This document shows, in pieces, positions 3,332 to 43,239 of a DNA stretch of 49,801 bases. The stretch lies in the IMG/VR virus record IMGVR_UViG_3300049203_000167, positions 1 through 49,801 of that record, one strand, 5' to 3'. Each line of letters begins with the position of its first letter. The first letter of the stretch is position 1. Under the pieces are notes generated by a model. It was not told where the DNA came from and ran no database searches. It was given only the letters and a program-made list of their open reading frames with translations. The position numbers were made by a program, and so were the translations under genes. The stretch comes from a virus.

Positions 3332-3365
3332 TGTGGCGGGGTAATGTGGGCATTATACCGCCATA
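3332..3365 (-). promoter_or_regulatory. Operator palindrome copy 1, overlapping the -10 box
   Basis: Read on the minus strand: TATGGCGGTATAAT, six bases, ATTACCCCGCCACA. The arms are imperfect inverted repeats, and the left arm contains the TATAAT of the promoter for the unit starting at 3313. One of seven copies in the genome, all in the same orientation towards the downstream gene. Confidence 0.85.
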
Positions 3366-3381
3366 AAAAGCCAGTGTGCAA
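3352..3381 (-). promoter_or_regulatory. Sigma70-type promoter for the 3313 unit
   Basis: TTGCAC (3376-3381), an 18-base spacer and TATAAT (3352-3357) on the minus strand. About 60 bp around it closely match the promoter at 5775-5804, including GGGGTATTG over the -35 box, so the two are copies of one module. The operator palindrome covers the -10 box, so bound protein would block or remodel RNA polymerase. Confidence 0.8.
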
Positions 3382-3396
3382 TACCCCGGCGGATTG

Positions 3397-3783
3397 TTAA
3401 GTACCGGGGGCGTCTGGCGTTTTCTTCCAGATGCTGTTCGCGCCGGAGGTTACGCTTGCCGGCTGAGGTACCGGAGAGGGAACTTGCGTTGGTTGCGGCG
3501 GCTTGATGATTTCGCGCTCGGCTCGCGCCGGATCGTAGCGCCTGCGTTTGATCTCGCTGTAACGGTTCACGAGCTGCGGCACGCTTTCCGTGCTGTCGTA
3601 AAAGCTTCCGTTTGTGAGTTGCACGCGAGTGAGGTGGCGCGCCGGCTGTTCGTCGCTCAGAAAGGCAACGAAACCTTCGATGAGATTCAGTTCAACGGCG
3701 GCGAAGCCGTCAGGCGAGGTAAAGCAAAGAAAGTCCGTTTGATCTGGCGAGAACGGAAATGTGGCAACTGGATTAAAGGGCAT
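3397..3783 (-). CDS. Hypothetical protein, 128 aa, proline-rich C-terminus
   Basis: A compact alpha/beta N-terminal part (residues 1-80) is followed by a proline-rich tail (PPQPTQVPSPVPQP). AGGAG lies eight bases upstream of the ATG at 3783. It is the last gene of the unit that begins at 5736; the next promoter starts just past its stop. No family recognised. Confidence 0.7.
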   Translation of the reverse strand: MPFNPVATFPFSPDQTDFLCFTSPDGFAAVELNLIEGFVAFLSDEQPARHLTRVQLTNGSFYDSTESVPQLVNRYSEIKRRRYDPARAEREIIKPPQPTQVPSPVPQPASVTSGANSIWKKTPDAPGT

Positions 3784-3793
3784 GGCGGTGCTC

Positions 3794-4153
3794 CTAGTGA
3801 AAAATGGTGTCGGAATTCATCTGATCCGGCGGCATGTTGCGGAGCTCGGCTTCCTGCGCAGCGGCGGCTTGCCGGGCCGCGATGGCACTTGGCATGAAAT
3901 AACCGTTGAGCTCGCGAACAATGTCAGCGAGGATAGGTACGGCAAGTATGCCGGGCAGCTCGCCGGTTTGACGCGCGAGCCGGAACATATCGCCAAAGCC
4001 AGTCATGTACATGAGCTTGAGGTTGTACAGCAAGCGCGGGTCAACGTCCGGGCCGAGGATTTCTTTTACAATCGCTTGTTGATGCAGCCAGTTGGCTTCG
4101 AGCGTGAAGGCGACTGAATCGAAAGGGTTGAAGCTGGATTTTTCGTCAGACAT
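3794..4153 (-). CDS. Hypothetical helical protein, 119 aa
   Basis: The start MSDEKSS at 4153 follows AAGAGA; an ATG 18 bases further up has no ribosome site. It is mostly helical and hydrophobic (YNLKLMYMTGFGDMFRLARQ, ILAVPILADIVRELNGYF), though no segment is long enough to call transmembrane with confidence. No family recognised. Confidence 0.65.
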   Translation of the reverse strand: MSDEKSSFNPFDSVAFTLEANWLHQQAIVKEILGPDVDPRLLYNLKLMYMTGFGDMFRLARQTGELPGILAVPILADIVRELNGYFMPSAIAARQAAAAQEAELRNMPPDQMNSDTIFH

Positions 4154-4164
4154 GATAGGTTCTC

Positions 4165-4401
4165 TTACCAAGGTTGATCTTCCACGCGGTTGTCGATGAT
4201 GAGCTTGTCGTTTTCCGTGTGAGCCTGGAAGTAGCGCCGGAGATCGGTGCCCATGAGCTTACGAAGTTGCCGCGCGCTCATTTCGAACTGCTCCATGATG
4301 GTGCGCTCTTTGTTGTAGACGAGGACATGCGGCACGCTGTTGTTAGTGACGATGGGCTGTTGCATCTTGACGATGCCTTGCCAGTTATGTTTCTTGGGCA
4401 T
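4165..4401 (-). CDS. Hypothetical protein, 78 aa
   Basis: AAGGAGG six bases before the ATG at 4401 fixes the start, which lies 17 bases inside the previous gene in another frame. It is polar and charged with no cysteine pairs or clear motif; residues 36-58 (MEQFEMSARQLRKLMGTDLRRYF) look like two short helices. Function unknown. Confidence 0.65.
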   Translation of the reverse strand: MPKKHNWQGIVKMQQPIVTNNSVPHVLVYNKERTIMEQFEMSARQLRKLMGTDLRRYFQAHTENDKLIIDNRVEDQPW

Positions 4402-4612
4402 GCCCGGCCTCCTTTTCGCGGTTGTACTCTTCGCGCAAGAGCCGGTTGACCAGCTCGCTGAGGGCGCCTTTGCGGGTCTTGCCGGTGAAGGTGTCCATGT
4501 GCTTCAGGCGGAAATGCGTCGAAAGGTCGAGGTCCACGCTCACGTGCCAGTCATCGGAAGGAATGGCCTTTTTGGGGGCGCCGCGATTGCTCTTGTAAGG
4601 TGCATCAGACAT
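4385..4612 (-). CDS. Ribbon-helix-helix-like small DNA-binding protein, 75 aa
   Basis: After a basic N-terminal arm, residues 22-30 form a short strand (WHVSVDLDL), followed by STHFRLKHMDTFTG, then KTRKGALSELVNRLLREEYNRE. Strand-helix-turn-helix of this length is the layout of Arc/MetJ-type ribbon-helix-helix repressors, which bind palindromic DNA as dimers or tetramers. GGGGGTGG precedes the ATG at 4612. It sits in an operon driven by a promoter covered by an operator palindrome, so it may be the regulator of the seven palindromes and of its own operon. The fold is a reading of the sequence pattern; the target is inference. Confidence 0.55.
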   Translation of the reverse strand: MSDAPYKSNRGAPKKAIPSDDWHVSVDLDLSTHFRLKHMDTFTGKTRKGALSELVNRLLREEYNREKEAGHAQET

Positions 4613-5054
4613 GATCCACCCCCAGGAGTACGTGCGCGTTGTAAGCCACCTCGACCACGCTTTCGAGCGTCGGCCCGTGGAAGATCGTGCCGTTGTGCTT
4701 GAGCCGGTAGCCCTGAATGTCGCCGTTGTAGTCGAGGATCGCGCCGTGAGTGCGGAGCAGTTGGCGCAGGCAGTCGAAGTGGTTCGTTCCGGCTGCGCGC
4801 CCGATCTCGTCTACGATTGCGGTGTTCGCCTCGTTGCCGACGATGAAGCTCGGTTCCGTAAAGGCGATCTCACGCGCATCGGGGTTGAAGGGACCGAGTT
4901 GCGCCTCGGCGAGCATCGTGTGGTGGTGCTGGCCTGTGACGTCGGTGAGTTCGCCGTCGCCGCTTGCGATGAGCATGTCGCGCTCGTCTTCGTTGTGAGC
5001 GTACATGTAGGTTTCGCTCTCGGGATGGTAGAGGATGAAGTGCTCTTGTGTCAT
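4605..5054 (-). CDS. Hypothetical protein, 149 aa
   Basis: A soluble, acidic protein, His-rich in places (GQHHHTMLAEAQLG). Two halves are visible: residues 1-45 (HFILYHPESETYMYAHNEDE) and a C-terminal alpha/beta part (LRTHGAILDYNGDIQGYRLK). The ATG at 5054 overlaps the upstream TGA (ATGA). No family recognised. Confidence 0.7.
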   Translation of the reverse strand: MTQEHFILYHPESETYMYAHNEDERDMLIASGDGELTDVTGQHHHTMLAEAQLGPFNPDAREIAFTEPSFIVGNEANTAIVDEIGRAAGTNHFDCLRQLLRTHGAILDYNGDIQGYRLKHNGTIFHGPTLESVVEVAYNAHVLLGVDHV

Positions 5055-5281: not shown

Positions 5282-5292
5282 GTTGTGGCTCC

Positions 5293-5736
5293 TTAAAGGC
5301 CAGGGATTTCGAGTCCGTCGGTCGGCGGCTCGGTTTGAAGGACTGCTGCGTGGAAGCAGCAGGGGCAAAGATCAATGTCTTGTGTCGTTTCCTTGATGAC
5401 ACGAGGTTTGGTGGCGAAGTCGTGCGGCACGGAAAGCTTATCGTGGCGGCGCTCGCGCGTCACGCCGTTCGGAGTCATTTCGCCGAGGAACAGGCCCTCA
5501 ACGCTTTGCGCTTGCAGGCCGCAACGGCAGCGTTGCGTGTTGATAACGAGCGTGACGCTGTGCGGGAGCCAGGTCGGAGTAATTTTCGGAAGGTCTTGCC
5601 AAGCTTGCTTTGGCTTTTGCGTCTTGCTCTTTGCGGGCGCCGCGCGCTTGAGGTCGCGGTCGAGTTCGCTCATGAAGTCGCCGAGATCATCGAAGTCGTC
5701 GGTGAGCGCTGTGGTGGGGTTGGAACCTGTGGTCAT
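5293..5736 (-). CDS. Hypothetical zinc-binding protein, 147 aa, first gene of its unit
   Basis: CRCG (about residues 69-72) and CPCC (about 124-127) form two cysteine knuckles flanking a beta-rich core, a likely zinc site. The N-terminus is acidic and low in complexity (DDFDDLGDFMSELDRD). AGGAGG lies five bases upstream of the ATG at 5736, directly after the promoter/operator at 5755-5804. No family recognised. Confidence 0.7.
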   Translation of the reverse strand: MTTGSNPTTALTDDFDDLGDFMSELDRDLKRAAPAKSKTQKPKQAWQDLPKITPTWLPHSVTLVINTQRCRCGLQAQSVEGLFLGEMTPNGVTRERRHDKLSVPHDFATKPRVIKETTQDIDLCPCCFHAAVLQTEPPTDGLEIPGL

Positions 5737-5754
5737 GTGGCCTCCTGCGGTATG

Positions 5755-5788
5755 TGTGGCGGGGTAATGTTGTAATTATAACGCCATA
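5755..5788 (-). promoter_or_regulatory. Operator palindrome copy 2, overlapping the -10 box
   Basis: Minus strand: TATGGCGTTATAAT, six bases, ATTACCCCGCCACA. The right arm is perfect to the consensus; the left arm carries TATAAT. Same orientation relative to its gene as the other six copies. Confidence 0.85.
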
Positions 5789-5804
5789 AAAATCAAGGTG
5801 TCAA
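5775..5804 (-). promoter_or_regulatory. Consensus sigma70 promoter for the 5736 unit
   Basis: TTGACA (5799-5804), 18 bases and TATAAT (5775-5780) on the minus strand: both boxes match the consensus exactly. It should be very strong unless repressed through the overlapping palindrome. Confidence 0.88.
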
Positions 5805-6770: not shown

Positions 6771-7120
6771 AGGACTTTCTCCAGTATGGGGCGCAAAGCT
6801 TCGAAAAAGCGAAGTTGTGCGCCGGGCGTGGCGCAGGTGACGTCGAGCGTGTCGGGCTCGTAGCCTGCGTTGTGTACGAGCAGGTCGAATTCGCTCGAAC
6901 GGCTGATGAGGAGTGCGCGATGCGGCCAGCCGTCGAAGAGGACCTTGAGCAGGCAGCCGTGAGGATGTTCGAGGAGCTTAAGGCTCCAGGCGGACATGAG
7001 GGCGCGAGCGTAACGCGGGGGAAACGCTATGCGGTATGTTCCTGGGCCGAACAGGACCTCGTTGCGCGCGGCGATGAAGAGGCGCGAAGGGCCATAGGTG
7101 GTGAGTGCCTCGGGTCTCAT
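6767..7120 (-). CDS. Hypothetical protein, 117 aa
   Basis: A basic N-terminal half and an alpha/beta C-terminal half (GCLLKVLFDGWPHRALLISR). The ATG at 7120 overlaps the upstream TGA and its TGA overlaps the next ATG. No motif recognised. Confidence 0.7.
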   Translation of the reverse strand: MRPEALTTYGPSRLFIAARNEVLFGPGTYRIAFPPRYARALMSAWSLKLLEHPHGCLLKVLFDGWPHRALLISRSSEFDLLVHNAGYEPDTLDVTCATPGAQLRFFEALRPILEKVL

Positions 7121-7446
7121 ACAGGCATTCCGATTTCGTCAATGGCACGTTGGGTAAGCTTGTACACGGGGGCTGCGACACATCCGTTGCATATAGCATC
7201 GACCATCCCGTACTCGATCACACCGGCTTCGAGCAGCACCTGTCTGCAGCCCATGTTCTCACCCCAGGTTTTGAGTGCGATCAGCGGGGCAGCGAGCGGC
7301 TTGTTCATGTTTACGGTGTAAGTGCACCACGCTTCGCCGGTCTCGCCGTCGCTGCCGCGCAGGCACAGATTACCGTTCTCGGCATAGTGGTGTAGTGTAA
7401 GGCGAATGGGCGAGGTATTGCCGTAACGCTTGTCTTCGATAAGCAT
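7117..7446 (-). CDS. DUF4313-like protein, 109 aa
   Basis: The pattern of a short beta sheet (RLTLHHYAENGNLCLRG), then AWCTYTVNM, then KTWGENMGCRQVLLEAGVIE resembles the small DUF4313 proteins found on plasmids and phages, whose function is unknown. AAGGAG lies nine bases before the ATG at 7446. It is the first gene of its unit, behind the promoter at 7484-7513. The family call rests on remembered pattern only. Confidence 0.65.
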   Translation of the reverse strand: MLIEDKRYGNTSPIRLTLHHYAENGNLCLRGSDGETGEAWCTYTVNMNKPLAAPLIALKTWGENMGCRQVLLEAGVIEYGMVDAICNGCVAAPVYKLTQRAIDEIGMPV

Positions 7447-7622: not shown

Positions 7623-8234
7623 TTACGCCGGCGTTTCTTCCGCTGCGTCGAGATCCAGGCCTTCGAGATCGTCGCTGGCCGTGTTGCCGTCTTTGGCTGC
7701 AGCTTCCTCGGCGGCCTTGGCACGTGCCGCAGCTTTTTCGGCGCGGATCTCGGCGATGATCGCCTTGATCTTTGCGTTGGCACGCCAGGCTTTGACCTGC
7801 TCGTCGGTGGCTTTCGCCACGACCGCGTTGGCCTTCTCGATCGGGGCAGACTTGAAGCGGGCAATGGCTTCGGCCAGTTCGGTGACCTTGCTGCCGCCTT
7901 CGCCGCCTTCGCGCGCTTGCTTCCATTCGCCGGCCATGAGCTGCTTGAGGACGGCTTCGAACTTGTTTTTCGCTGCGAGAACGTCGCCCTTGACGGACGC
8001 ATACGAATCACCGAGCTTCTGCGAAAGGCCGTGGAGTGCCAGCAGCGTCACGATGTTCGAGGGCAGGCTTTCGAGTGCGACTTCGGCCTTGGCGCCGTCG
8101 GCGAAGACAATGCTGAAAACCTTTGCCTCTTCGTCGTAGTCTTTGCGTGCGACCTTGATGCGGCCGCTTGCGCTGGTCGGGCCTGTGGCGAATTCGGTGG
8201 AGGTTTCGGTGGTGGCGGCTTGATCTTGAGACAT
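7623..8234 (-). CDS. Alanine-rich helical protein, paralogue of 10634-11164, 203 aa
   Basis: AGGAGA precedes the ATG at 8234. Residues 1-80 contain a beta-rich domain (KVFSIVFADGAKAEVALESLP). Residues 130-190 are a long helix with KATDEQVKAWRANAKIKAII, and the C-terminus is acidic. The helix matches the protein at 10634-11164 (KATEEQRKAWSKNAQVAALI there) at many positions, so the two are diverged copies. Each stands alone between its own promoter and terminator, which suggests high, independent expression. I know no function for this family; abundance plus acidic tail would fit a DNA mimic, a nucleoid-type protein or an SSB-like binder. Confidence 0.8.
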   Translation of the reverse strand: MSQDQAATTETSTEFATGPTSASGRIKVARKDYDEEAKVFSIVFADGAKAEVALESLPSNIVTLLALHGLSQKLGDSYASVKGDVLAAKNKFEAVLKQLMAGEWKQAREGGEGGSKVTELAEAIARFKSAPIEKANAVVAKATDEQVKAWRANAKIKAIIAEIRAEKAAARAKAAEEAAAKDGNTASDDLEGLDLDAAEETPA

Positions 8235-8330: not shown

Positions 8331-8381
8331 CCCCTTGACACGAAAATTTTGCGCGTGGAGTTGCACGTGAGTGGTGCTCGT

Positions 8382-9222: not shown

Positions 9223-9471
9223 TTAAAAGGTGAAGTGACGTGCCGCGGTTGCAACTTCGAGTGCGAGGTTGAGTGTAAGGCCTGTGATTTCGCCTATGTA
9301 ACCTCGTGTGCTTGAAATGGCAATGATCCAGCCTGTGGCCGTGAGTGTGGCTGTGTACTCGAAGGGGCTGTTGCCCTTCATGCCAGTACCCTGAATGACG
9401 GTTGCGTTGCGAATGTCGCAGGTGGCGATGGCACTCACCATCACGTTGTCGTAGTTCCAAGCTGTGCGCAT
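9223..9471 (-). CDS. Hypothetical beta-rich protein, 82 aa
   Basis: The ATG at 9471 has AGGAG upstream and lies just behind operator copy 3, so it opens a transcription unit. The sequence alternates small hydrophobic and polar residues (EYTATLTATGWIIAISSTRG), suggesting a small beta sandwich. No family recognised. Confidence 0.7.
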   Translation of the reverse strand: MRTAWNYDNVMVSAIATCDIRNATVIQGTGMKGNSPFEYTATLTATGWIIAISSTRGYIGEITGLTLNLALEVATAARHFTF

Positions 9472-9490: not shown

Positions 9491-9523
9491 TGTGGAGGGG
9501 TAACGGTGAATTACCCCGCCATA
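9491..9523 (-). promoter_or_regulatory. Operator palindrome copy 3 with weak promoter
   Basis: Minus strand: TATGGCGGGGTAAT, five bases, GTTACCCCTCCACA. A possible -10 is GGTAAT within the left arm, with TAGACT 17 bases before it as -35. This is a much poorer promoter than copies 1 and 2, so it may need activation by the bound protein. Confidence 0.75.
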
Positions 9524-9908: not shown

Positions 9909-10181
9909 TTACATCTCCTTCAGTACGTCCAACACCAAGACCTGTGCGGGAAAGCCTTCGATACCGCTCAGGCTTAAACTCATGGTCAGGAACCGGATTC
10001 GCGGCCGCAGGCTCATAATACCCTTGCCCTGCGCCTCGACAGCTCCGCAGCCCTTTGCAAGTTCGATTGCGAGGGCGTGACGGATTGCCTTATACCTGGC
10101 TGTTCCGAGCCATGCCTTGCAGTCGGCCAGGGCCGCGCTCCATTTGCCGGGGCCTTTGTACTTCCGTGTGTAGTGTGTCAT
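9909..10181 (-). CDS. Hypothetical basic protein, 90 aa
   Basis: AAGGAG eight bases before MTHYTRKYKG at 10181 fixes the start; upstream the frame runs only through repeat words. Basic N-terminal third, helical middle (WLGTARYKAIRHALAIELAKG), hydrophobic C-terminus. It follows the repeat block 10182-10633 and is the first gene of its unit. No family recognised. Confidence 0.7.
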   Translation of the reverse strand: MTHYTRKYKGPGKWSAALADCKAWLGTARYKAIRHALAIELAKGCGAVEAQGKGIMSLRPRIRFLTMSLSLSGIEGFPAQVLVLDVLKEM

Positions 10182-10633
10182 GCTCTTTCTCCTTGTGTGG
10201 CAATGTGGAAATGTGGTATTGCCGGATAGCCCTTGCCTTATAGCCATCCCATAGCCACGCTGTCGTATAGCCCAGTGTGGCTATGCCATGTCTATAGCCA
10301 TAATGCCGTGGCAATGCCGTGCCAATGGCACATTGTGGCTGTAGTGGGTGCCTTGTAGCCGCCCCGTGCCGTGGTATTGCCATGTAGAGGTAGTTATCAT
10401 TCTCATAACAAAAAAAATTCAACTAATAATCTTCACACCCACTATAGGGCAAAATAGCTACGGGGGTGGTGGCTACATTGCACCCACTATGGCCATAATG
10501 TAGCTATGCCATATTGCCACCGTATAGCCGTGTATTGCCATCTCGTTGCCACATAGCCATGCATACCTACCTGGCTATCTGGTAACACGGCTACGGGACA
10601 TTGCCATCTTCACCCCGTAGCCGTATTGCCCCG
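10182..10633. repeat. Noncoding block of short repeated words with an AT-rich core; possible origin
   Basis: 452 bases with no credible gene. The plus strand carries about nine TAGCC words, four GGCTA words and many TTGCCA/TGGCAA words, often as ATAGCCATG-like units, plus two copies of CACCCACTAT and one of CACCCACTAC on the other strand. Near the middle, 10391-10433 is strongly AT-rich (a run of eight A inside). Iteron-like words around an AT-rich stretch, in the early arm, are what a replication origin looks like; dense protein-binding sites for another purpose are the alternative. Origin function is inference. Confidence 0.5.
10587..10624. terminator. 11-bp perfect inverted repeat after the 10634 gene
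   Basis: ACGGCTACGGG and CCCGTAGCCGT flank a 16-base loop, ten bases past the stop of the gene at 10634. There is no T-tract, so it is not a classical terminator. It may stop or protect the transcript's end, or be part of the repeat block, since its arms are made of the same GGCTAC/GTAGCC words. Confidence 0.5.
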
Positions 10634-11164
10634 TTACTCTTCGCCCTCGTCGAGCCCGAAGTCCAAATCCTCGTCCTTCGTGCCCTTCTCGGCGGCCGCT
10701 GCGAGCCGTTCTGCCTTGTACTTCGCGATGAGCGCCGCAACTTGCGCGTTTTTGCTCCACGCTTTGCGCTGCTCTTCGGTAGCCTTCGAAACCGCCGCCA
10801 TTGCCCGCTCCTCGGAGGTCTTCTTCATCTCCGCGATAGCCTTGGCGAGGTCCTCCATATTCACACCGGCTCCAGCGCCTCCTCCCTGCCTGTTCCAAGT
10901 ATTGTTGTACAGGCTTTGGATAACTTCACCCATTTCCTCGCGCGCTCCAGCAAAATCCTGCTCCTTGCTGTAGCCCGCAGCGCTGTCCCGTACCTTCTGG
11001 TTGAAGCCGTGGAACATTGCCCGAGTGCGCATGTCCTCACTGCAACGATCAGTGTCAAGCGTCAACCTGCCCTTATCGCCGAACTCGAAGATCAGCGTAT
11101 TGCCGTTCTGCTTGACTTCCAGAAACTTTGCCTTTGCCGGTGCTTGGTCTTTAGCCTTCGTCAT
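10634..11164 (-). CDS. Helical protein, paralogue of 7623-8234, 176 aa; first leftward gene
   Basis: AAGGAG seven bases before the ATG at 11164. An N-terminal beta region (NTLIFEFGDKGRLTLDTD) is followed by a long helical part with LAKAIAEMKKTSEERAMAAV and KATEEQRKAWSKNAQ, and an acidic tail (DEDLDFGLDEGEE). Order of parts and the shared helix identify it as a paralogue of 7623-8234. It is the first full gene of the leftward arm, behind a good promoter and a roughly 200-base leader, so it should be among the earliest and most abundant products. Function unknown; an acidic-tailed abundant early protein could bind nucleic acid or mimic it. Confidence 0.8.
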   Translation of the reverse strand: MTKAKDQAPAKAKFLEVKQNGNTLIFEFGDKGRLTLDTDRCSEDMRTRAMFHGFNQKVRDSAAGYSKEQDFAGAREEMGEVIQSLYNNTWNRQGGGAGAGVNMEDLAKAIAEMKKTSEERAMAAVSKATEEQRKAWSKNAQVAALIAKYKAERLAAAAEKGTKDEDLDFGLDEGEE

Positions 11165-11480: not shown

Positions 11481-11513
11481 TATGGCGGCATAATTCCGCA
11501 TTACCCCTCCACA
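11481..11513 (+). promoter_or_regulatory. Operator palindrome copy 4, ahead of the packaging operon
   Basis: TATGGCGGCATAAT, five bases, ATTACCCCTCCACA on the plus strand, oriented towards TerS. The left arm offers CATAAT as -10 but no good -35 stands at the right distance, so late transcription here may need an activator. Downstream, before TerS, are a GCGCGC-rich stretch and the palindrome GGCACT-CGA-AGTGCC at 11545-11559. Together with the leftward promoter this fills the 473-base gap 11165-11637. Confidence 0.8.
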
Positions 11514-11637
11514 CATATATAGAAGAGCGCGCGCACACGCGCGAGGCACTCGAAGTGCCCCTCGGCGAAAGTGACTTGCCAGCGCGAAACGGGCACGATA
11601 TAGTACCGTACATGTCCCTCCCGCCAGGAGTCCCGCG

Positions 11638-12342
11638 ATGAACCCTGAAGACGATTACACTGTGCCACTCACCTCGGTGCCCGAACCAGACGGGGACGCC
11701 TTCATGCGTGCCCTCGCAGAAGCGCTCGCCGCCGACGAAGCCCAGCCCCAGCCCGACCCCGTGCCCCCTCGCCCTGCGCCGAAGTTCGAGCTCAGCAACA
11801 TCTCGCACACGCACGAGGCCGTGATGAACTGGATGATTACGAACCCGGAAAAGAGCCTGCGCGAATGCGCCGCGCACTTCCGTTATACGCAGTCCTGGCT
11901 CTCGGTCCTCATCCACAGCGATCTGTTCCAGGCGCGCCTGAAGGAAAAGCAGGAGCAGGTCTTTGCGCTCGTGGCGCAGGATGTGCCGGCGAAGCTCGGG
12001 GCCCTCGCGAACATCGGCACGGAGAAGCTGCTGCAGCAGATGGAAAAGAGCGAGGACCCGAAGTTCATTCACGAGGTGACGAAGACTGCCCTGGCCTCGC
12101 TCGGCTTCGGCTCGAAGGGCGCAGGCCCAGCCAACAACGTCAATGCGCAGAATGTACAGCAAAACTTTTATGTAGCGTCGCAGGCCGATCTGGAGGCGGC
12201 CAGGGGAATGATCACCGGAGGGCCGAGGTTGGTCTCCGGCGGTTCTCCGCAAGGTGGTCATGCGCCTGTCGACGCTACTCTTACGCAGCCCGCCGCGGAG
12301 CCGGTCGCTTCGCAACTTACCCACCAAAAGGAGATCTCATGA
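11638..12342 (+). CDS. Terminase small subunit, 234 aa
   Basis: TerS recognises the packaging site and guides TerL. After a disordered Pro/Asp-rich N-terminus, residues 57-105 contain a helix-turn-helix (SLRECAAHFRYTQSWLSVLI) and then a long helix for oligomerisation; the C-terminus is low in complexity. AGGAG lies eight bases before the ATG. Position two genes ahead of TerL and the HTH-plus-helix layout support the call; sequence similarity to a known TerS is not claimed. Confidence 0.75.
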   Translation: MNPEDDYTVPLTSVPEPDGDAFMRALAEALAADEAQPQPDPVPPRPAPKFELSNISHTHEAVMNWMITNPEKSLRECAAHFRYTQSWLSVLIHSDLFQARLKEKQEQVFALVAQDVPAKLGALANIGTEKLLQQMEKSEDPKFIHEVTKTALASLGFGSKGAGPANNVNAQNVQQNFYVASQADLEAARGMITGGPRLVSGGSPQGGHAPVDATLTQPAAEPVASQLTHQKEIS

Positions 12343-14629: not shown

Positions 14630-16554
14630 GCGAGGCGAACAAGATTATTCCGTATGAGAGCAAACTGCATGCCGCTATTGTGCCGCGCCTGCAAGCCCGG
14701 ATCAAAAAGGCTCGTGATGCGATGAGTACGCGCAGCGAGCAGTGGGCGCGGAACGAAGAGCAGTTTATGGCCTACATGCCAGCGAAAGAAAACGATCGGC
14801 TGCGTGAGGGCAAGCGGAAGCAGGGCGAGCCGCAGTTCACTACCATTGAAATTCCTTACAGCTACGCCATTGTGCTCACGGCGCACACTTACATTACGAG
14901 CACGTTCCTCAGCCGCACGCCGGTGATTCAGCTCGCCGGGCGGCACGGTGAGGCGCAAAACGCTGAAATGGCCATGGAGGCGCTGCTCGATTACCAGACG
15001 CAAACCGGCAAGCACCTGGTTCCGTACTATGTATGGACGCTCGACGCGCTCAAGTACGGCCTCGGCATTGTGGGGACTTATTGGGACGAAGAGCGTATGA
15101 TCGTGCGGAAGCGGCAGGAGGTCGAGCGCACATTCCTCGGTATTCCGGTTCCCGGTACCAAGCAAACGGTTGACGTTGAGGAAGAGGTTCGGGGCTACGT
15201 CGGCAACCGGCTTTACAACATCCGCCCGTTTGACTGGTTCCCTGATCCGTCGTATCCGATTTCGCAGTTTCAAAAGGGCGAGTTCTGCGGCCGGTTCGTG
15301 AGCGTGGCGTGGCTCGACATTGTTGACGGGGAGAAGCGTGGTGAATACTTTAACTTGGCGGCACTTAAGGCAAATCGCCGGCAGAGTTACAGCCTTCGCG
15401 TCGACGGCAGTAGCCGCGTTGACCTGCCGGGAAAGCCGTCGCCGGTTGTCCCTCACGATGATTACGATACTGGCAATGTGGATTGCCATGAGCTTTATGT
15501 GCGACTCGTGCCAAAGGATTGGGGACTGGGATCGAGCACCAGAAGTGAAAAGTGGGTGTTCCTCCTCGCCGAAGATAATATCCTCATCAGTGCGCGGCCT
15601 CTCGGGTACTATCACAACAAATTCCCGTTTGCAGTACTTGAGCAAGAAGTGGACGGTCACAGTTTATTTGCGCGAAGCATGCTTGAGGTTATGAAGCCGC
15701 TGAACGACACGCTGACCTGGCTGCTGAACAGTCACTTCTACAATGTGCGAAAGGCCCTTAACGATCAGTTCGTTGTGGACCCTTCGCGCGTCGTGATGAA
15801 GGACATGACCGACCCGAATGCTGGCAAGCTCATCCGGCTCAAGCCCGCCGCGTACGGCACTGACCCGAAATTGTCCATCACGCAGTTGCCTGTCACCGAC
15901 GTTACGAGGGCGCATTTGGCCGATGCACAACTGGTGGAAATGATGCTGCAGCGCGTCAGTGGCGTCAACGACAACATCATGGGCATGATGGGCTCGAGCC
16001 GCAAAACCGCTACGGAAGTGCGCAGTTCGACCACGTTCAGCGTGAACCGGCTCAAGACCACAACGGAATATATGTCTGCGATGGGCTTCGGACCGCTGAC
16101 CGAACTGCTCGTGCAGCAAACGCAGCAGCTTTACGACGACGATCGTAAGTACCGGGTTGTAGGTGACGCGGCGCAATACATGAATGAGCGCTTCATCAAC
16201 ATCACGCCTGAGGCGATTGCCGGCTTCTTCGACTTCGTCCCGGTGGATGGTACGCTGCCGGTGGATCGGACGGCGCAGGTGAACCTATGGACTCAAATGT
16301 TCGCGCAGGCGCAGGCGTTTCCGCAGATCATGGCGGGATATGACTTTGTGAAGATCTTCGCTTTTGTGGGGCAGCTGGCCGGCCTGAAAAACATTCAGCA
16401 ATTCCGCGTGCAGGTCGTTCCTGACGCGACGATGCAGAACGCGATGATGGCGGGCAACAGCGTCCCGGCAATGCCGACGGATCTGGAAGGCGTGGACGCA
16501 AACGGCGGGAATGTGCAGCCGCCGCAGGTTCCTGGCATGGGCCAGGCTTTGTAA
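14626..16554 (+). CDS. Portal protein (head-tail connector), 642 aa
   Basis: The dodecameric vertex through which DNA enters and leaves. Size, position straight after TerL and the sequence layout support this: long helices at the start, AHTYITSTFLSRTPVIQL, the conserved NDTLTWLLNSHFYNVRKALNDQ stem region split across the middle, and an Ala/Met/Gly-rich C-terminus. The ATG at 14626 overlaps TerL's TGA and has GAGGAG upstream; an ATG 15 bases earlier lacks a ribosome site. Podophage-type size; no fused domain seen. Confidence 0.85.
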   Translation: MSEANKIIPYESKLHAAIVPRLQARIKKARDAMSTRSEQWARNEEQFMAYMPAKENDRLREGKRKQGEPQFTTIEIPYSYAIVLTAHTYITSTFLSRTPVIQLAGRHGEAQNAEMAMEALLDYQTQTGKHLVPYYVWTLDALKYGLGIVGTYWDEERMIVRKRQEVERTFLGIPVPGTKQTVDVEEEVRGYVGNRLYNIRPFDWFPDPSYPISQFQKGEFCGRFVSVAWLDIVDGEKRGEYFNLAALKANRRQSYSLRVDGSSRVDLPGKPSPVVPHDDYDTGNVDCHELYVRLVPKDWGLGSSTRSEKWVFLLAEDNILISARPLGYYHNKFPFAVLEQEVDGHSLFARSMLEVMKPLNDTLTWLLNSHFYNVRKALNDQFVVDPSRVVMKDMTDPNAGKLIRLKPAAYGTDPKLSITQLPVTDVTRAHLADAQLVEMMLQRVSGVNDNIMGMMGSSRKTATEVRSSTTFSVNRLKTTTEYMSAMGFGPLTELLVQQTQQLYDDDRKYRVVGDAAQYMNERFINITPEAIAGFFDFVPVDGTLPVDRTAQVNLWTQMFAQAQAFPQIMAGYDFVKIFAFVGQLAGLKNIQQFRVQVVPDATMQNAMMAGNSVPAMPTDLEGVDANGGNVQPPQVPGMGQAL

Positions 16555-17853: not shown

Positions 17854-17887
17854 TATGGCGGGGTAAATCCAACATTATCCCGCCACA
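17854..17887 (+). promoter_or_regulatory. Operator palindrome copy 5, ahead of the major capsid gene
   Basis: TATGGCGGGGTAAA, six bases, ATTATCCCGCCACA, directly before the ribosome site of the capsid gene. No good -10/-35 pair is visible, so either an activated promoter lies here or the element acts on the RNA, where it can fold as a hairpin. Confidence 0.8.
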
Positions 17888-17905: not shown

Positions 17906-19090
17906 ATGGCTATCATGGGCCTGCGCGGTACCGGTGACTGGGGCACGGATGAACGTCCCAAGAACTTTCGTGAAACTATTTTGTGGCGCCAGCCGAACGG
18001 CATGGCTCCGCTGACCGCCCTCATGGCGAAGATGGGCTCGGAAAAAACCGATGACCCGGAATTCGCCTGGTGGGAAGAACAGCTGAATGCGCATCGCTTG
18101 CAGGTGAATGGCGCGCTGACCAACGTTGCAACGGCACTTGTCGTCGACAGCGGTGACGCCACCAACCTGGTCCCCGGCGATCTGCTGCTGGTGGAAAAGG
18201 CCGATCAGACCACCTACGATAACGAAATCGTGGAAGTGACTGCCGTGGCTTCGTCCACTGCCGCAACCATTTCTCGTGGTGCAGCCGGCACAACCGCAGC
18301 GGCCATTCCCGATGATGCGTTCCTGACGAAAATCGGTAACGTATACAGCGAAGGTTCCGGCAGCCCGTCGGCCTCGACCCGCAACCCGACCAAGTCGTTC
18401 AACTACTGCCAGATTTTCAAGACGGCGTATGAACTGACCGAATCGGCCAAGGTCACCAAGTCCCGTACCGGCGATCCGCTGAAGAACGACAAGAAGCGCA
18501 AGATGTTCGACCACTCCGTGGCGATGGAAATGGCCTTCTTGTTCGGTCGCAAGTGGGAAGGTACCGGCTCGAACGGCAAGCCGAAGCGCACGACCGGCGG
18601 TCTGCGTTCTTTCCTGAGCACGAACGTGACAGTTTTCGGCGGCGGTGGGCCGGCTTTTTCGATGGACAACTTCGTCAATGCCATCAGCCCGGTCTTCGAT
18701 TACGCTACCGGCGCCGGCGACGAGCGTCTCGGCCTGATCGGCAATACAGCGTTGACGGCGCTGAACCGTCTGGCCCAGAACACCACGAACACTCGGATCA
18801 ACCACACCGAGATGGTCAAGGTGTACGGCATGAACCTGACTCGTGTGGTCATGCCGCAGGGTACGCTGTACCTGAAGTCGCACCCGCTGATGAACGTCCA
18901 CCCACTCTTCACCAAGAGCATGTTCGTTCTGAACCCGAGCGGCGTGAAGTATCGTTACCTGCGCGATACGAAGCCCCAGGACAACATCCAGGGCAACGAT
19001 TCCGATACCGAAAAGGGTCAGTGGATCGGCGAGTGCGGCATGGAAGTACACCATGAGCGTACTTTCGCGTACCTGGGCAACATGGCCTAA
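17906..19090 (+). CDS. Major capsid protein, SU10/DUF5309-like, 394 aa
   Basis: Builds the HK97-fold shell. Position after the scaffold, length, the strong ribosome site AAGGAG, its own regulatory element and a following terminator all mark the most abundant late protein. The sequence pattern (ETILWRQPNGMAPLTALMAKMG near the start, split here from EFAWWEEQL, then a beta insertion at residues 75-125 and TELTESAKV-type central helix) fits the SU10-like capsid family (DUF5309). The family name is from memory of the pattern. Confidence 0.85.
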   Translation: MAIMGLRGTGDWGTDERPKNFRETILWRQPNGMAPLTALMAKMGSEKTDDPEFAWWEEQLNAHRLQVNGALTNVATALVVDSGDATNLVPGDLLLVEKADQTTYDNEIVEVTAVASSTAATISRGAAGTTAAAIPDDAFLTKIGNVYSEGSGSPSASTRNPTKSFNYCQIFKTAYELTESAKVTKSRTGDPLKNDKKRKMFDHSVAMEMAFLFGRKWEGTGSNGKPKRTTGGLRSFLSTNVTVFGGGGPAFSMDNFVNAISPVFDYATGAGDERLGLIGNTALTALNRLAQNTTNTRINHTEMVKVYGMNLTRVVMPQGTLYLKSHPLMNVHPLFTKSMFVLNPSGVKYRYLRDTKPQDNIQGNDSDTEKGQWIGECGMEVHHERTFAYLGNMA

Positions 19091-27380: not shown

Positions 27381-28037
27381 ATGCCACTCGAAACTGCCGT
27401 TTATATTAATGAACTGAACGAAACGTATCCGGAAGTTGAGGATGATGTCAGTCAGGGCGAAGATCACATTCGGATTATTAAGGGCGCGTTGAAACGCACT
27501 TGGCCCAATATTGCCGGACCGGTGCTGAAGACTCATACGCAGCTGAATGCCACGCCGCATAATCGCGAGGGGATTGCCGCACTTCTCGGCGCCAACCCGG
27601 TGTTGATCGACCCAAGCCAAATTTCCGGCGGCGCGAACCGCCTTGTGGCCCTGGCCATTCATGGCGCGACTGGTCGTTTACGCTGGGCCTCGGAAGGGCT
27701 TGCGCCGGCTGGTGGCGTTGTACTGGATAACGAATTTACCGGCGGTAATCAAGGGAGGTTTGGCAATGGCTGGCAAATCTTTCCTGGCGGCTTTCGCGTC
27801 ATGTGGGGATCGTTCAGCGTGAACATGCCGGGAAGTGAAGTTTCCGTTGCGTTCCAGGCTGCTTTTCCAGCCTTTTTCAATCAGGTTGTGCAGGTCATGG
27901 CGACTCCTGCGAATGGCAATGGAGGCGGGCACATTACCTGTACGGTCGAGGGCTGGAACACGCAAACCTTCAGCGGCTTTGTTAACTCGGCTGCGCCGGG
28001 CGGTCGGAGCTTCCGGTGGCTTGCTTTCGGATTTTAA
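27381..28037 (+). CDS. Tail fibre protein with gp53-like C-terminal domain, 218 aa
   Basis: N-terminal TYPEVEDDVSQGEDHIRIIK is a form often seen at the start of short podophage fibres. The C-terminal third (FGNGWQIFPGGFRVMWGSFS and a Gly/Phe-rich end) resembles the trimeric gp53-like receptor-binding tip. GAGGATG precedes the ATG. Its TAA overlaps operator copy 6. Confidence 0.7.
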   Translation: MPLETAVYINELNETYPEVEDDVSQGEDHIRIIKGALKRTWPNIAGPVLKTHTQLNATPHNREGIAALLGANPVLIDPSQISGGANRLVALAIHGATGRLRWASEGLAPAGGVVLDNEFTGGNQGRFGNGWQIFPGGFRVMWGSFSVNMPGSEVSVAFQAAFPAFFNQVVQVMATPANGNGGGHITCTVEGWNTQTFSGFVNSAAPGGRSFRWLAFGF

Positions 28038-28068
28038 TGGCGGGGTAAATCCACATTACGCCTCCATA
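28036..28068 (+). promoter_or_regulatory. Operator palindrome copy 6, ahead of the stabilisation gene
   Basis: AATGGCGGGGTAAA, five bases, ATTACGCCTCCATA. It overlaps the stop codon of the fibre gene and is oriented towards the next gene. No good sigma70 boxes accompany it. Confidence 0.75.
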
Positions 28069-28081: not shown

Positions 28082-29683
28082 ATGTCCCGAATTCCCATTA
28101 TGAACTTGGATCAGATCGGCATCATTAAGGACATTGAGCCGCATGATCTGCCGATTAATGCCTGGAGCGGCGGGAAAAACGTGCGCTTTAAGAATGGCCA
28201 CGTGGAACGCTTTACAGGCCACACTCCGGTATTTACGCCTGCAGTGGATACGCAATTCGCTTTGCCAGTGGAAACGCCGACAGGGTATTTTTGGCTCTAC
28301 GTGGGCGGGCAGCAGGCTTACGCGTACAAGGACGGCGTGAATAACGTAGCCACGCGTGCCAGTGGAAATTACAACAGCAGCTCCGGGAACGTGTGGACAG
28401 GTGGCGTATTGCACGGTATTCCGGTGCTGAACAATCCCAACGATATTCCGCAGGCCTGGACCATTCCCGCCGCAGGCAACCGGCTGGTGAACCTACCGAA
28501 CTGGAATATCACTTGGCGGGCTCGCAGCATGAAGCCGTACAAGAATTACCTTGTGGCCTTGGGCGTGAGCAAAGCCGGGGTTGATAATCCTTGGCTCGTT
28601 TGCTGGAGTGACGTTACCGATCCCGGAACTGTGCCGTCAACGTGGGATGGCAGCGATCCACAAAACGACGCCGGGGATATGATCCTGGCCGACAGTAACG
28701 GACACCTCGTGGATCAGTACGAACTTGGTGACGCGAATATTCTGTATAAGAGCGATTGCGCTTATGCTATGCGGCACGTCGGAGGCATCGACATTATGGG
28801 CTTCAAGAAGGTGTTGAAGTCTGACGGGCTGCTCATGCCGAATGGCGTGGCGATGTTTAGCTTCCGCGGGGACAAGCATATCGTCTTCGGCACTAATGAA
28901 ATTTATGTGCATGACGGCTATACCGCTGAGCCGATTCTGTCGAGGCGTATGCGCGACTGGATTTACAATAATCTGGATCAGAATTTCATGCTGCAATCGT
29001 TCCTGACAACGAATCAGGATATGAAAGAAGTATGGATTTGCTTTCCGCAGAATGGCCAGACAAGGCCGAATACGGCGCTGGTGTGGAATTACCAGGACAA
29101 CACCACGACAATTCGAGATCTGCCCTCGCCTACGTTTATCACTGCCGGCCGTATTACCAGTGCGCAAGCCGGTGACGGTGGCGATACCTGGGGAACGATT
29201 ACAGGTACCTGGGCGACCATTAAGCGGAAATGGGGCGGAACGAAGTATAAGGCGCTGGCCAATCGCATGCTGATGTTCACGACCGGCGCAGGTCGCAAAG
29301 CGTATCTGCTGGATCAAGGAAGTCTGTTCGACGGGGTGGAGTATGAATCGTACGTTGAGCGGATTGGCTTGAGCGTTCTCGGTAAGGATCCTTACAGCGG
29401 AAAGCCGCTTTACGAGAGCGATCAGCTCAAAACAGTAACGGAAGTCTGGCCGCGGATTAAGGCTGATCGCGGCGTTGTGATTGACATTTGGCTCGGATCG
29501 CAAGTAACGGAAGACAGTGCGATTAAGTGGAAAGGCCCGTTTGCCTTTACCGCTGGCGTGAGCGATAAAATAAATCCCTACATTACGGGGCGGATTCTCA
29601 GCATTCGTTTTGCCGTTCGCGGCGCAAGGCCGTGGCAACTTAGCGGGTACGACCTGGAAGTTATTCCTGGCGGCCAGAATTAA
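28082..29683 (+). CDS. Tail hub / packaged-DNA stabilisation protein, P22 gp10-like, 533 aa
   Basis: It seals the portal-adaptor channel in P22-like phages. The sequence is a run of short beta blades with repeated Trp/Gly (WSGGKNVRFKNGHVERFTG, GYFWLYVGGQQAYAYKDG, FSFRGDKHIVFGTNEIYVHD), like a beta propeller, and the length fits gp10. It follows operator copy 6 with AAAGGA before the ATG. Assignment is by fold-like pattern and context. Confidence 0.6.
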   Translation: MSRIPIMNLDQIGIIKDIEPHDLPINAWSGGKNVRFKNGHVERFTGHTPVFTPAVDTQFALPVETPTGYFWLYVGGQQAYAYKDGVNNVATRASGNYNSSSGNVWTGGVLHGIPVLNNPNDIPQAWTIPAAGNRLVNLPNWNITWRARSMKPYKNYLVALGVSKAGVDNPWLVCWSDVTDPGTVPSTWDGSDPQNDAGDMILADSNGHLVDQYELGDANILYKSDCAYAMRHVGGIDIMGFKKVLKSDGLLMPNGVAMFSFRGDKHIVFGTNEIYVHDGYTAEPILSRRMRDWIYNNLDQNFMLQSFLTTNQDMKEVWICFPQNGQTRPNTALVWNYQDNTTTIRDLPSPTFITAGRITSAQAGDGGDTWGTITGTWATIKRKWGGTKYKALANRMLMFTTGAGRKAYLLDQGSLFDGVEYESYVERIGLSVLGKDPYSGKPLYESDQLKTVTEVWPRIKADRGVVIDIWLGSQVTEDSAIKWKGPFAFTAGVSDKINPYITGRILSIRFAVRGARPWQLSGYDLEVIPGGQN

Positions 29684-41500: not shown

Positions 41501-41941
41501 CACGGCGTTCGCGCGCCAAGCGGTGGCAAGATCACTATTGATCGCGAGAGCGGAACCGTACGGGATCTGACAACCGGCGAGAACATTGTCCGGCTGATGG
41601 GCTTCCGTCCTGAAATCATTGCCGCGAATCAGGAAATCCACTGGATGCAGAAGGAGCAGCAACAGTACTGGACGGTGCGGCGGAATCAGCTCGTGGCGCA
41701 AATGGCAGAGGCGAAACTGCAGGATGACCGCGAAGCGATTGCCGATGCGCAAATGGCACTGGAGCGCTTTAACGACGATGCGCCGCGAGAACTGAAGATC
41801 AATCCGAAGGAAATGCGGCTAGCACTGAAACGCAAGGCGAAGGCGGCAAAGCAGGATGAACGGCGCCAGAACCGGCAAAAGCGTTTTCGCCGAATGGATG
41901 AGGAACTGGCGCGGGAGGTGCTTGGTCAGGAAGAGGATTGA
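35537..41941 (+). CDS. Giant ejection protein: lytic transglycosylase plus HEAGH zinc-protease motif, 2134 aa
   Basis: A virion protein expected to enter the cell envelope ahead of DNA. Residues 170-270 have two Gly/Ala-rich hydrophobic stretches. Residues 370-500 are an SLT lytic transglycosylase with catalytic E396 in AGIESSFDPNAKN and SAHGLFQLIDSTW. Residues 870-1015 include AAFHEAGHVIALE (H882, E883, H886) and later EEYMAEQF (E1013), as in zinc metallopeptidases. The rest is helical, with an amphipathic region around residues 1600-1850 and a highly charged C-terminus (KRKAKAAKQDERRQNRQKR). It ends 16 bases inside the opposing gene. Wall cutting is well supported; protease action is inferred. 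Confidence 0.8.
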   Translation: MELNTRGATLVGEAPDAPQELDLRGATEVQVNEPGFLTSVRRGMAQSKAALNIAEQSGSAQMYDALDKLERDGDTPEAQELAKRDPLFANHYNLWKAKGKDPAVIAQLKAQQTATIEQNTRNMREAAATTELNPPSPEYEEFQKADGFADAFSKLGKAPISTAVQVAAESLGQQAPALPVMAAAGVTGGPGALAGAAGISSFVQERMGAEAQALAEAGVDPNDTQALIRYYNSPEFKQKQAEGTKKAAVVGAFDAATAGMAGTALAKKPLGNLAAQTGVQMVGGAGGEVAGSLAAGQEVNAPSVISEAIGEIPSAGFDVGTMAARKALNATLLNRVADEKLKEAEIGLNTEQERTVDDVVGAAHKQKLTPLQSKIFLKAAEMGVDAKAALTIAGIESSFDPNAKNPDSSAHGLFQLIDSTWNGVGGGDRSNLDLQIVNGLKSIAATQTALEAQLGRKISSEELYMGHLLGPKGAAIAIRADVNDPQGAFLDTVKKWDKVNADTIVAANGLKGLTNEQALRKIEGMYLRKSNALGNNEQLNRKVKASRDADAAPSEDITGLDATDENLGVEDIDAMLASVEDQPVTEADRIAAQAEDSLTKVQDGADSQAVAEAALLNDSAVDVEEVAPTLMEENPRLPRDLSGASPRFGFGKDLFSLEFASDVDRAAYIIANNARRSERDADFLSFVMKHTGMNEDEAREYGKGLRQQIKEMAKEAQSGTERLLKIGDAKRAESWVSLDEAGTRVKYENPNDTYTNAIHKAPRLDGQGTLEDTPIQAGEVVAVGVDSAHTPYEYMGAMQQTLQDVISRFAPTARVALTFFTEAKGRVSSMTPKSNIGVRNKSAKARGLYQINMRNATGLTSEVRDGTKNPTTQRKITYAAFHEAGHVIALEQMVKNFPPALREKFMNLGVDEYFTEEEFAQMAPEQANVLREYNELKWQTLNNPAFTAEQFALAWLSPWKLGHGAGTRQGLFSFVKLYMGQDTVQRLRDPAAKFALEMNAKSNILSPEEYMAEQFSRYAFSTGMAETSPLSRTFFQRALDTLRAFFKRMKVEGLVKPGVAFAEWVDSLSTIGAELPNKALPEREAVDVVPVKVKPKLKAKAALPETKPEDKPIMPPPAHKKNEKMIAVARGQDYTEKQNANFLLLRTNLAFVMKDDPKVFQHWMDLVRNNRLEDFRDEVAGYIDEDWADEKVRYDTDAPEYESWREVEAQLEKAVPKRAGLKKWFGNGLRKLSDAKYFAMTLEQMAFRWPEVAGLQALAYMKTNYKAFKARLELKGIEATTKWGKLGKEQHGRLEAAMREEHLQGKHFAGVQEVNGTIRFVPSEELAAYATLKGLEPETIEIWLDVKNAHIAHMNALQNSIAKKMRARYKGRPATLKVKLHELAEQFRQIRAEPFLPQTRFGEYAIRVTEDTLDGPKVVHVEFFESAAMRDEAMEQLKKVAGKRKVQAAHYKMTTSILRTLPVELLGTYAQELELTAQERKELRDIADATTRNKTTRKYSSQLAGITGANKDLMRNFADFMWHSANNIAKLHYRSEMKRAVLQIEADMFAAAEDGDIQFHDELRKVWNFADRYVDHMMSPTDEWQTVRSFVVLHQLWGNIKTAVANLGSLHAVWALAATQQGTVKGTARNLTVIAKAVADQFNSVTNRVLRSQKEGGQVWGPDTRWALDQAKQDGLLDESFAAQLAQFANSSTLSRLNFQHGDSVYKRFVWMGMQPQHLIESYVRRVSLVTQFENYLRAGQTKEQAYAKARRDTYLTQGDNSLLNRPEFMRGKYGVFLIYYGYIQNQLYLLSGAEERARNYQEAMIEGRTEGMNRTEARGKYFKTHKIAGETTKMWLAYLMLGGLMGLPGAEDLDNVLEYLAKKFFGTRFSLKEYAYKLAATISEEASAFGVDVNPRSVVHGTFADFSLLGITPSIDMSSSLGLGQVVPGAGGFGDPNAPRGIVKSMGPVGGFATNIWEAAFSDDPAKRLNFLPNTVKGITRAVDDWRHGVRAPSGGKITIDRESGTVRDLTTGENIVRLMGFRPEIIAANQEIHWMQKEQQQYWTVRRNQLVAQMAEAKLQDDREAIADAQMALERFNDDAPRELKINPKEMRLALKRKAKAAKQDERRQNRQKRFRRMDEELAREVLGQEED

Positions 41942-43188
41942 AGGGTGCCGGCCTTTTGAACGAAAATGGAACCGTTCTGGTTCACGATCATCAAGTGACC
42001 GGCATTGACGCAAGATTGTAACGCGTCGCTGAAATCGTTGTATGAAGCCACCCGGAATACGTTGGCATAAAGCTTTTGCTGTTCGAGCTTACCTTCTCGC
42101 TCGATGATTTCGCAAAGCTGCCCGGCGAGCCGGGTGATTTCATTCTGGCCGATGCGCGAGAACACCAGGTTCATGTCAGCTTCAAGACCAGAAGTAAGAT
42201 TTGCAGCGAGTTCCAAAGTGCGAGCATCGACCCGCCGAGTATCGTCAGCTGCCGCAGAAAGCACCATTGCCAGCTTGTGGATGTGCGTTTGCTTACGCGC
42301 AAGATAACCACCGAACTGATCAGGGTCAAGATGAGAATGTCGTGTAGTCCAATGCTTTGCATACCAGGCTTCCCCCCAAGTGTAAGCGTCCTCCGTGAGC
42401 GTCATTTCCCCCGCCATCATCGAAATGCATTCGAGATCGTGAATGAGGTCTTGCTTGAGTTGCAGCACCTTGTCTTCGCCGAGCTCAGCCATCCGCCTCT
42501 TCGGGTAGGCGACTAATTGTCGCTTCTTGTCCGCATATACAAACACACAGCGTGATGTAAAGCCACCGCCGATCATGTACTCCGGGAAGTTGCCGGAGAT
42601 CCAAGCTGGGGTAGTACAGGCGATAATGTTGATATAAGGATTGACGATGGCATCGTTGCCGGAACTCTTCGTCTTTTTCTCGAATGTCCCTTCCTTTCCA
42701 TCCCACAATCCAACAAAAATGTCCACCATCTCGCGGTCTTGAGGATTCAACAAATTGCCAAATTCGTCTGAGCAGATGGTAATAGCGGACATGTCGATAT
42801 ACTCGCCCGTTGAGGGGTCGATGAAACTTTCGCGTGACTCGGCCATGCCCTGCACAAGACTCTGCCACGTCACCACCTCCGGACCCCACTTGATACCAGG
42901 TACCTGCCGGAGCAAGTTCATTCCGATATTGGCTGTTGTGGATTTCGAAATGATACCTGGCTTTGCCACCAGGATAACATAGAAGTTTGGCACCCACTTG
43001 AAGTACCCCATGTCGATCCAGACCTTGCGGCGAAGGGCACCAGCGATGGTGCTGACTCCGGTCCAGAAAAGTGTATTGTCGGGGGCCTCGCCGAACCTCG
43101 CGTATTGAGCGAAGCTGGCGAGCCAGTTTTTCAGGCGCCGCTTTGGGACGGCCGGCGGAACGCCTAAGAGTGGTTCAGTCATTTGCAT
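41926..43188 (-). CDS. DUF3987-like replication ATPase (primase/helicase type), 420 aa
   Basis: YVILVAKPGIISKSTTAN (residues 70-87) is a P-loop with serine where the usual glycine precedes the lysine (SKST, K82), as in DUF3987-type ATPases. ITICSDEFGNLL (D141, E142) is the Walker B strand, and an HTH-like C-terminus follows (residues 340-420). This family often replaces DnaB or primase-helicase in phages. It is the only helicase-like gene seen. The ATG at 43188 has a weak ribosome site and lies behind operator copy 7; a second ATG two codons on is also possible. Confidence 0.65.
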   Translation of the reverse strand: MQMTEPLLGVPPAVPKRRLKNWLASFAQYARFGEAPDNTLFWTGVSTIAGALRRKVWIDMGYFKWVPNFYVILVAKPGIISKSTTANIGMNLLRQVPGIKWGPEVVTWQSLVQGMAESRESFIDPSTGEYIDMSAITICSDEFGNLLNPQDREMVDIFVGLWDGKEGTFEKKTKSSGNDAIVNPYINIIACTTPAWISGNFPEYMIGGGFTSRCVFVYADKKRQLVAYPKRRMAELGEDKVLQLKQDLIHDLECISMMAGEMTLTEDAYTWGEAWYAKHWTTRHSHLDPDQFGGYLARKQTHIHKLAMVLSAAADDTRRVDARTLELAANLTSGLEADMNLVFSRIGQNEITRLAGQLCEIIEREGKLEQQKLYANVFRVASYNDFSDALQSCVNAGHLMIVNQNGSIFVQKAGTLQSSS

Positions 43189-43206
43189 GAGAGCGGAACG
43201 GAATTG

Positions 43207-43239
43207 TGTGGAGGTATAATGACGGATTACCCCGCCACA
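43207..43239 (-). promoter_or_regulatory. Operator palindrome copy 7, ahead of the replication ATPase gene
   Basis: Minus strand: TGTGGCGGGGTAAT, five bases, ATTATACCTCCACA. It has the same orientation towards its gene as the other copies. The sequence GGTATAATG is on the plus strand here, facing away from the gene, so whether a promoter accompanies it is unclear. Confidence 0.8.

Follow-up and report, generated by a model that had tools for sequence, protein, structure and literature searches.

The phage genome analysed here, a stretch of 49,801 nucleotides (positions 1 to 49,801 of IMG/VR record IMGVR_UViG_3300049203_000167, hereafter the window), contains seven nearly identical copies of a long palindrome, which stand where its early and late gene blocks begin. 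The palindromes are read as operators of a small ribbon-helix-helix (RHH) protein encoded by the phage itself at 4385-4612, which would repress early transcription and switch the late genes on while working with the host RNA polymerase. From the sequence evidence this reading is given a probability of roughly 0.7. That the palindromes are operators of some phage-encoded DNA-binding protein is very likely.

The core of the palindrome has the form GG[CA]GGNRTAAW-N5/6-WTTAYNCC[GT]CC and is 27-28 nt long, with at most three mismatches to the palindrome in each of the seven copies (Table 1). The pattern, with up to three mismatches allowed, had no match in 100 shuffles. With a weight matrix derived from the 14 half-sites, the seven copies reach 31.9-35.6 bits. 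The initial annotation had placed seven copies between genes or at gene edges, and had regarded many equal-scoring copies inside genes as an argument against a regulatory role. All seven were found, every one of them intergenic or at the edge of a gene. The matrix scan of the whole 49.8 kb gave no further or intragenic copies, and hidden ones can be dismissed because the next non-overlapping place scores just 6.4 bits. Six copies lie 16-22 nt ahead of a start codon, whereas the terminase copy lies 127 nt ahead of the ATG with a sigma70-like promoter in between. The half-sites vary as GG[CA]GGNRTAA[TAC], and typically one half is strong and the other weaker. The shared arms described earlier hold as this common half-site pattern, but in the form then given they occur in full at no single site. 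Likewise, the common orientation relative to the following gene is found in the flanks only, the palindrome itself being symmetric. Read towards the gene, (T)AT stands before and ACA(C) after the palindrome, exactly at five sites and approximately at 28039 (AAT...ATA) and 43210 (TGT...ACA).

Table 1. Palindromic operators, associated promoters and the candidate regulator gene in the window
Feature	Position	Strand	Context
Operator 1	3335-3362	-	22 nt before 75-aa gene 3086-3313
Operator 1 promoter	3352-3357 (-10) and 3376-3381 (-35-like)	-	-10 TATAAT in left arm; -35-like TTGCAC; spacer 18
Candidate regulator gene	4385-4612	-	75-aa RHH-like protein; contact strand WHVSVDL
Operator 2	5758-5785	-	21 nt before gene 5293-5736, first of the early operon containing the candidate regulator gene
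Sigma70 consensus promoter	5775-5804	-	TTGACA (5799-5804), spacer 18, TATAAT (5775-5780); -10 buried in operator 2
Operator 3	9494-9520	-	22 nt before gene 9223-9471
Operator 4	11484-11510	+	Upstream of packaging operon (terminase small subunit-like gene 11638-12342)
Sigma70-like late promoter	11576-11604	+	TTGCCA (11576-11581), spacer 17, TATAGT (11599-11604); operator 4 centre 106.5 bp upstream of -10 end
Operator 5	17857-17884	+	21-22 nt before major capsid gene 17906-19090
Operator 6	28039-28065	+	16-17 nt before virion structural gene 28082-29683 (phrog_3287); just past stop of 27381-28037
Operator 7	43210-43236	-	21-22 nt before DUF3987 / phage DNA primase-helicase type ATPase gene 41926-43188

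Similar systems occur in the relatives of the window. About 50 near-complete phage genomes were picked solely through homology to the capsid or the replication ATPase, blind to palindromes and RHH proteins, and each was searched for repeated palindromes by a self-converging weight matrix. The cut-off of 57 was set just above the maximum in 250 dinucleotide shuffles (mean 33, maximum 56). A palindrome family above it, with 4-9 copies, is present in 40 of the 50 genomes; the window reaches 128 and the highest genome 177. The control phages P22, phiKMV, HK97 and LUZ24 gave 41-57, and T7 gave 80 through a set of hairpins, so that a high objective does not by itself point to DNA operators. The palindrome sequence is private to each phage, with GTGTAGRTTAT, GGACGGTGATT, CCCGGGATTAC and GGCCGGATTAA among the versions. 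As for placement, 12 of 239 sites fall inside homology-annotated genes against 68 at random (minimum 49). Of the 38 phages that possess a terminase small-subunit-like gene, 26 have a site no more than 300 nt ahead of it, where random placement gives 1.7 and at most 8 in 1000 trials. Seven phages have a site no more than 30 nt ahead of the ATPase gene (random 0.27). Many relatives have a different virion module (most ATPase-selected genomes have no capsid homologue) and yet keep the same palindrome system, so that it travels with the replication/early module. In the distant relatives PaP2, Kuura, Tiera and Aeromonas P5 neither a convincing palindrome family nor an RHH match was found.

An exact-pattern scan of viral contigs rendered one true relative (G008) and eleven short contigs (L089, L090 and L092-L100). 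In the latter a single conserved palindrome, GGCGGGGTAAAAGGGCATTACCCCGCC, precedes one gene by about 25 nt; these fragments have no RHH homologue and are probably unrelated to the system of the window.

Scanning the early arm for DNA-binding signatures left a single candidate regulator, the product of 4385-4612. Iterated profile search finds an RHH-like homologue of 60-120 aa in 49 of the 50 genomes; the regulator is absent from PHROGs. The family alignment has a variable strand with alternating residues followed by two helices, which is the layout of RHH proteins. Pfam matches are seen in a few members (RHH_3 at best, E=1e-4, and RHH_1, E=0.006), the window's own member having none, and profile matches to the PDB are to CopG-type RHH proteins and NikR (E=0.004-0.012). 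The AlphaFold monomers have two helices (predicted local distance difference test, pLDDT, 84 and 89). The RHH signature of an N-terminal strand and two helices is thus recognisable in the family, weakly but consistently.

The operators vary together with this protein. Pairwise operator similarity was compared with protein similarity in Mantel tests, and the seven-residue contact strand of the RHH protein correlates with the operator at r=0.32 (0.31 as a partial correlation on polymerase and ATPase; p=0.0005). The correlation with the RHH helices is weaker (partial 0.09, p=0.11), and polymerase and methylase show none in the full set. When near-duplicates are removed, leaving 31 phages, the values are 0.27 for the strand (p=0.001), 0.015 for the polymerase and 0.08 for both methylase and terminase. 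The contact strand is the strongest operator correlate in every subset. Single cases illustrate this: three phages with distant polymerases (G025, G031 and G040) have the identical strand KNIS and CCCGGG-like operators, and two others (G020 and G024) both have Glu at the middle contact position and the operator CCGG-N-GATTAT. This parallel change of protein and palindrome makes it probable that a single phage protein directs gene expression through the host RNA polymerase, and the RHH product is the likely binder. The orphan methylase, terminase, polymerase and SSB were rejected as binders, their covariation being absent or weaker.

Three classes of operators can be distinguished by their position relative to promoters. 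In class I the operator lies on a host-type promoter, as operator 2 of the window does. Across all phages 34 sites overlap a sigma70 promoter, compared with 12.9 expected. In 25 of 37 phages the RHH gene has an operator less than 1.6 kb ahead of it (random 22%), in G001 at 32 nt. Autoregulation is likely because the nearest upstream operator has a promoter aimed at the RHH gene in 19 of the 37. Class II is found at the terminase operon, where a sigma70-like promoter lies downstream of the operator. Measured from the operator centre, the -10 element ends at 71-79 bp in 8 of 29 phages (shuffle mean 0.036, maximum 1) and at 103-110 bp in 3 of 29, including the window (shuffle mean 0.026, maximum 1). 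The two distances, about 75 and 106 bp, differ by 31-32 bp or about three helical turns. Taking +1 at about 7 bp after the -10 element, the nearer group centres near -82, in the region from which the p4 protein of phage phi29 activates the late A3 promoter. In class III the operator is found 16-22 nt before the start codons of capsid, structural and ATPase genes, with no recognisable promoter. Two strong sigma70-like promoters on the reverse strand, at 8332 and 7510 before genes 7623-8232 and 7117-7446, have no operator and may escape the regulator.

A circuit can be proposed from these arrangements, in which binding, repression, activation and timing are predictions. The RHH protein would bind each operator as a symmetric oligomer with one unit per arm. 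Early in infection, strong sigma70 promoters would fire on the host RNA polymerase, among them the promoter at 5758 for the regulator's own operon. As the protein accumulates, it would occupy the operators over -10 and -35 elements and shut these promoters, its own included; repression of the promoter at 5758 appears quite probable. The place of the terminase operator is one expected of an activator or of a repressor that loops the DNA, and the same protein could switch the late block on. This activation is the weakest step, with slightly less than an even chance. At the capsid, structural and ATPase operators transcription might be gated by a roadblock or through an unrecognised promoter.

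Several other explanations for the palindromes must be considered. The RNA hairpin that was named as an alternative in the initial annotation would be a 5' untranslated region hairpin, an RNase III site or a terminator. Such an element could explain sites directly ahead of start codons and the T-run that follows some capsid-flanking sites in relatives, and the same search does pick out the T7 hairpin set, which we take to be T7 RNase III sites. An RNA element would keep its arms complementary and tolerate wobble pairs, but here one arm is often unlike its partner, as in the pair GGCGTTATAAT and GGCGGGGTAAT, and the differences are uncompensated. Read in gene orientation, five of the seven stems in the window carry 2-3 such non-pairs. 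In the relatives, 112 oriented sites have 57 G.U against 84 A.C and thus no preference for G.U, whereas the T7 set has 10 against 0. Uncompensated mismatches and no wobble bias argue for a DNA site, and the arm pattern is the trace expected of a dimeric DNA-binding protein. An RNA element is accordingly very improbable, and about as little can be said for the idea that the phage encodes an RNA polymerase or sigma factor with the palindromes as its promoters. This would account for sites at operon starts throughout the genome, but a search for the single-subunit, T7-type RNA polymerase (PF00940) recovered the T7 control (E=1e-109) and nothing in the 50 genomes (no separate search covered sigma-factor families), and palindromic symmetry and host-type promoters at many sites also speak against it. 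A binder other than the RHH protein, such as the ParB_N-methylase, the paralogous pair 7623-8232 and 10634-11164 or a host regulator, is improbable, though less so. The methylase and the paralogue pair are also universal or nearly so in the family, and the parB-type paralogue correlates weakly with the operator in the 31 phages (r=0.16, p=0.02), with parA having too few matches for the test. On the other hand, the methylase is uncorrelated, the RHH strand leads in all subsets, and a host factor would not yield about 40 different phage-specific operators. On the sequence evidence, the early and late genes appear to be served by one regulator, as the initial annotation had suggested, acting at a phage-specific transcription-factor site, which that annotation had named as an alternative.

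The RHH protein might also act without activating anything. As a pure repressor of all operator-bearing units it would keep the late genes off until replication titrates it, which is a possibility to be taken seriously although it falls short of even odds. Operators overlap core sigma70 promoters, most RHH proteins repress, and SvtR, described as a repressor, has its binding site about 80 nt ahead of the promoter of a structural gene (PMC5569661). An operator as far ahead of its promoter as at the terminase operon, and at one of two preferred distances, would be unusual for simple occlusion. It is less likely still that the bound protein halts elongating RNA polymerase at the promoterless late sites 17857, 28039 and 43210 in the manner of stoperators. 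Their position 16-22 nt before start codons with no recognisable promoter, the genome-wide spread and the fixed flank direction fit such roadblocks. In contrast, a lysogeny repressor binds stoperators, which are asymmetric and 13 bp long, while the sites here are palindromic and several overlap promoters. Integrase (PF00589) was detected in none of the 50 genomes, with positive controls, and a lysogeny repressor accompanied by an integrase was rejected on this ground.

Some observations weigh against the circuit with the RHH protein as activator and repressor. The per-sequence Pfam matches behind the RHH assignment are weak (best E 1e-4), and Foldseek found no PDB match for the AlphaFold monomers. 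This may be because the fold forms solely as a dimer, and the fold assignment rests on sequence because the monomer comparison gave nothing. Relatedness in the covariation tests was corrected by one or two marker proteins, and the window (G000) and G008 have nearly the same operator with different contact strands. A clear palindrome family was not found in 10 of the 50 genomes, and G004 has palindromes but no RHH match, although this contig may be partial. The late-gene sites with no recognisable promoter are not accounted for. Finally, Desulfofustis phage LS06-2018-MD01 (L312) has nine palindromes and no RHH match, and therefore other factors can fill the same role. Its copies, TGCTATGTCCC-AAATT-GGGACATAGCA, are mostly between genes, one of them 24 nt before an annotated transcriptional regulator (2296-2838), and probably represent the same regulatory role with a different protein.

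The earlier statement that no such circuit is known in podophages goes too far, since early and structural promoters are also the targets of p4 of the podophage phi29 and of the archaeal-virus RHH factors SvtR and AvtR. In logic p4 is nearest: a small early protein with inverted-repeat sites that works with the host RNA polymerase to repress early promoters and, from an upstream site, to activate the late one (PMC3100819). The likeness concerns the way of working only, the fold class being different by description. The p4 protein has an N-hook and not an RHH fold, and acts in one region together with p6 with one operator type in one clade, whereas the system in the window has 4-9 sites spread over the genome and a protein-operator pair diversified across about 50 phages. 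In protein type and in the idea of the regulon, SvtR of SIRV1 and AvtR of AFV6 are nearest. Both are small autoregulated RHH proteins with several imperfect inverted repeats and structural-gene promoters as targets, and AvtR both represses and activates (PMC5569661). They differ in belonging to archaeal viruses with archaeal promoters, in having few sites and in oligomerising along the DNA. We know of no family-wide protein-operator code for SvtR and AvtR.

Arc and Mnt of P22 are likewise phage RHH repressors with operators that overlap promoters, but they serve local antirepressor control in one immunity region of a temperate phage (Arc operator 14798-14818, Mnt operator 14822-14844), and hhalign gave no indication of homology between them and the RHH family of the window (probability 0.3%, E=0.18). 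The stoperators of cluster A mycobacteriophages (L5/Bxb1) resemble the present sites in having many copies throughout the genome, phage-specific versions of the motif and a fixed orientation (PMC6550527, PMC9283540), but belong to temperate phages, unlike the palindromic sites of this integrase-free lineage. The Pseudomonas RHH factor AmrZ both activates and represses and binds as a dimer of dimers (PMC3325190); it is a host regulator and not viral. None of the systems compared joins an RHH regulator, genome-wide operators in integrase-free phages and a diversified protein-operator code. No published description of this system was found in the literature searched, with most subscription journals outside it.

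What is new is the identity of the likely regulator, the family-wide set of co-varying operators and the two site classes. To our knowledge, how genes are ordered in time in lytic phages without an RNA polymerase or sigma factor of their own is open for most lineages. With one protein of 60-120 aa and its complete operator set named, the switch is directly testable, and a hypothetical protein of these genomes becomes a named candidate for a master regulator. It is possible, if rather short of an even chance, that a whole lineage of apparently virulent phages uses one RHH master regulator with private codes, combining early repression with packaging activation from a helically phased site. If so, the approximately 40 diverged regulator-operator pairs form a natural data set from which the RHH recognition code could be read. 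They also offer annotation and synthetic biology a source of sequence-specific regulators together with their operators.

The window is an essentially complete contig of 49.8 kb with a direct end repeat of 126 bp (1-126 identical to 49662-49787), indicating a circular or terminally redundant contig, and 14 nt of inverted junk after the second copy. Its gene set includes a P22/SU10-type portal, an SU10-type capsid, a T7-like terminase fold, pol A, the DUF3987 ATPase and the ParB_N-methylase. By capsid comparison the nearest named isolates are Microcystis phage Mel-JY34 and Vibrio phage VS-ABTNL-3, with the PaP2/119X group more remote. Mel-JY34, available in culture, likewise carries the RHH gene. 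The family A DNA polymerase (43564-46056, reverse strand) matches the uracil-DNA glycosylase superfamily in its N-terminal part. The fusion of ParB_N and an N6/N4 DNA methylase (46680-48026, reverse strand) is present throughout the lineage. The paralogues 7623-8232 and 10634-11164 (both on the reverse strand) are phage proteins with an HGL/FxQK motif, and most relatives also have two copies, often close to operator sites. In three relatives (L018, L021 and L037) an operator is located right after the capsid gene; a T-run follows in some relatives, and such a site might double as a terminator. Dense degenerate repeats of TAGCCA/TGGCTA and TTGCCA/TGGCAA occur at 10180-10660 and 46097-46163. The region 10180-10660 looks like a replication origin with iterons, and inverted arms of 34 nt (10330-10363 and 10468-10501) bracket an AT-rich core near 10395-10440.

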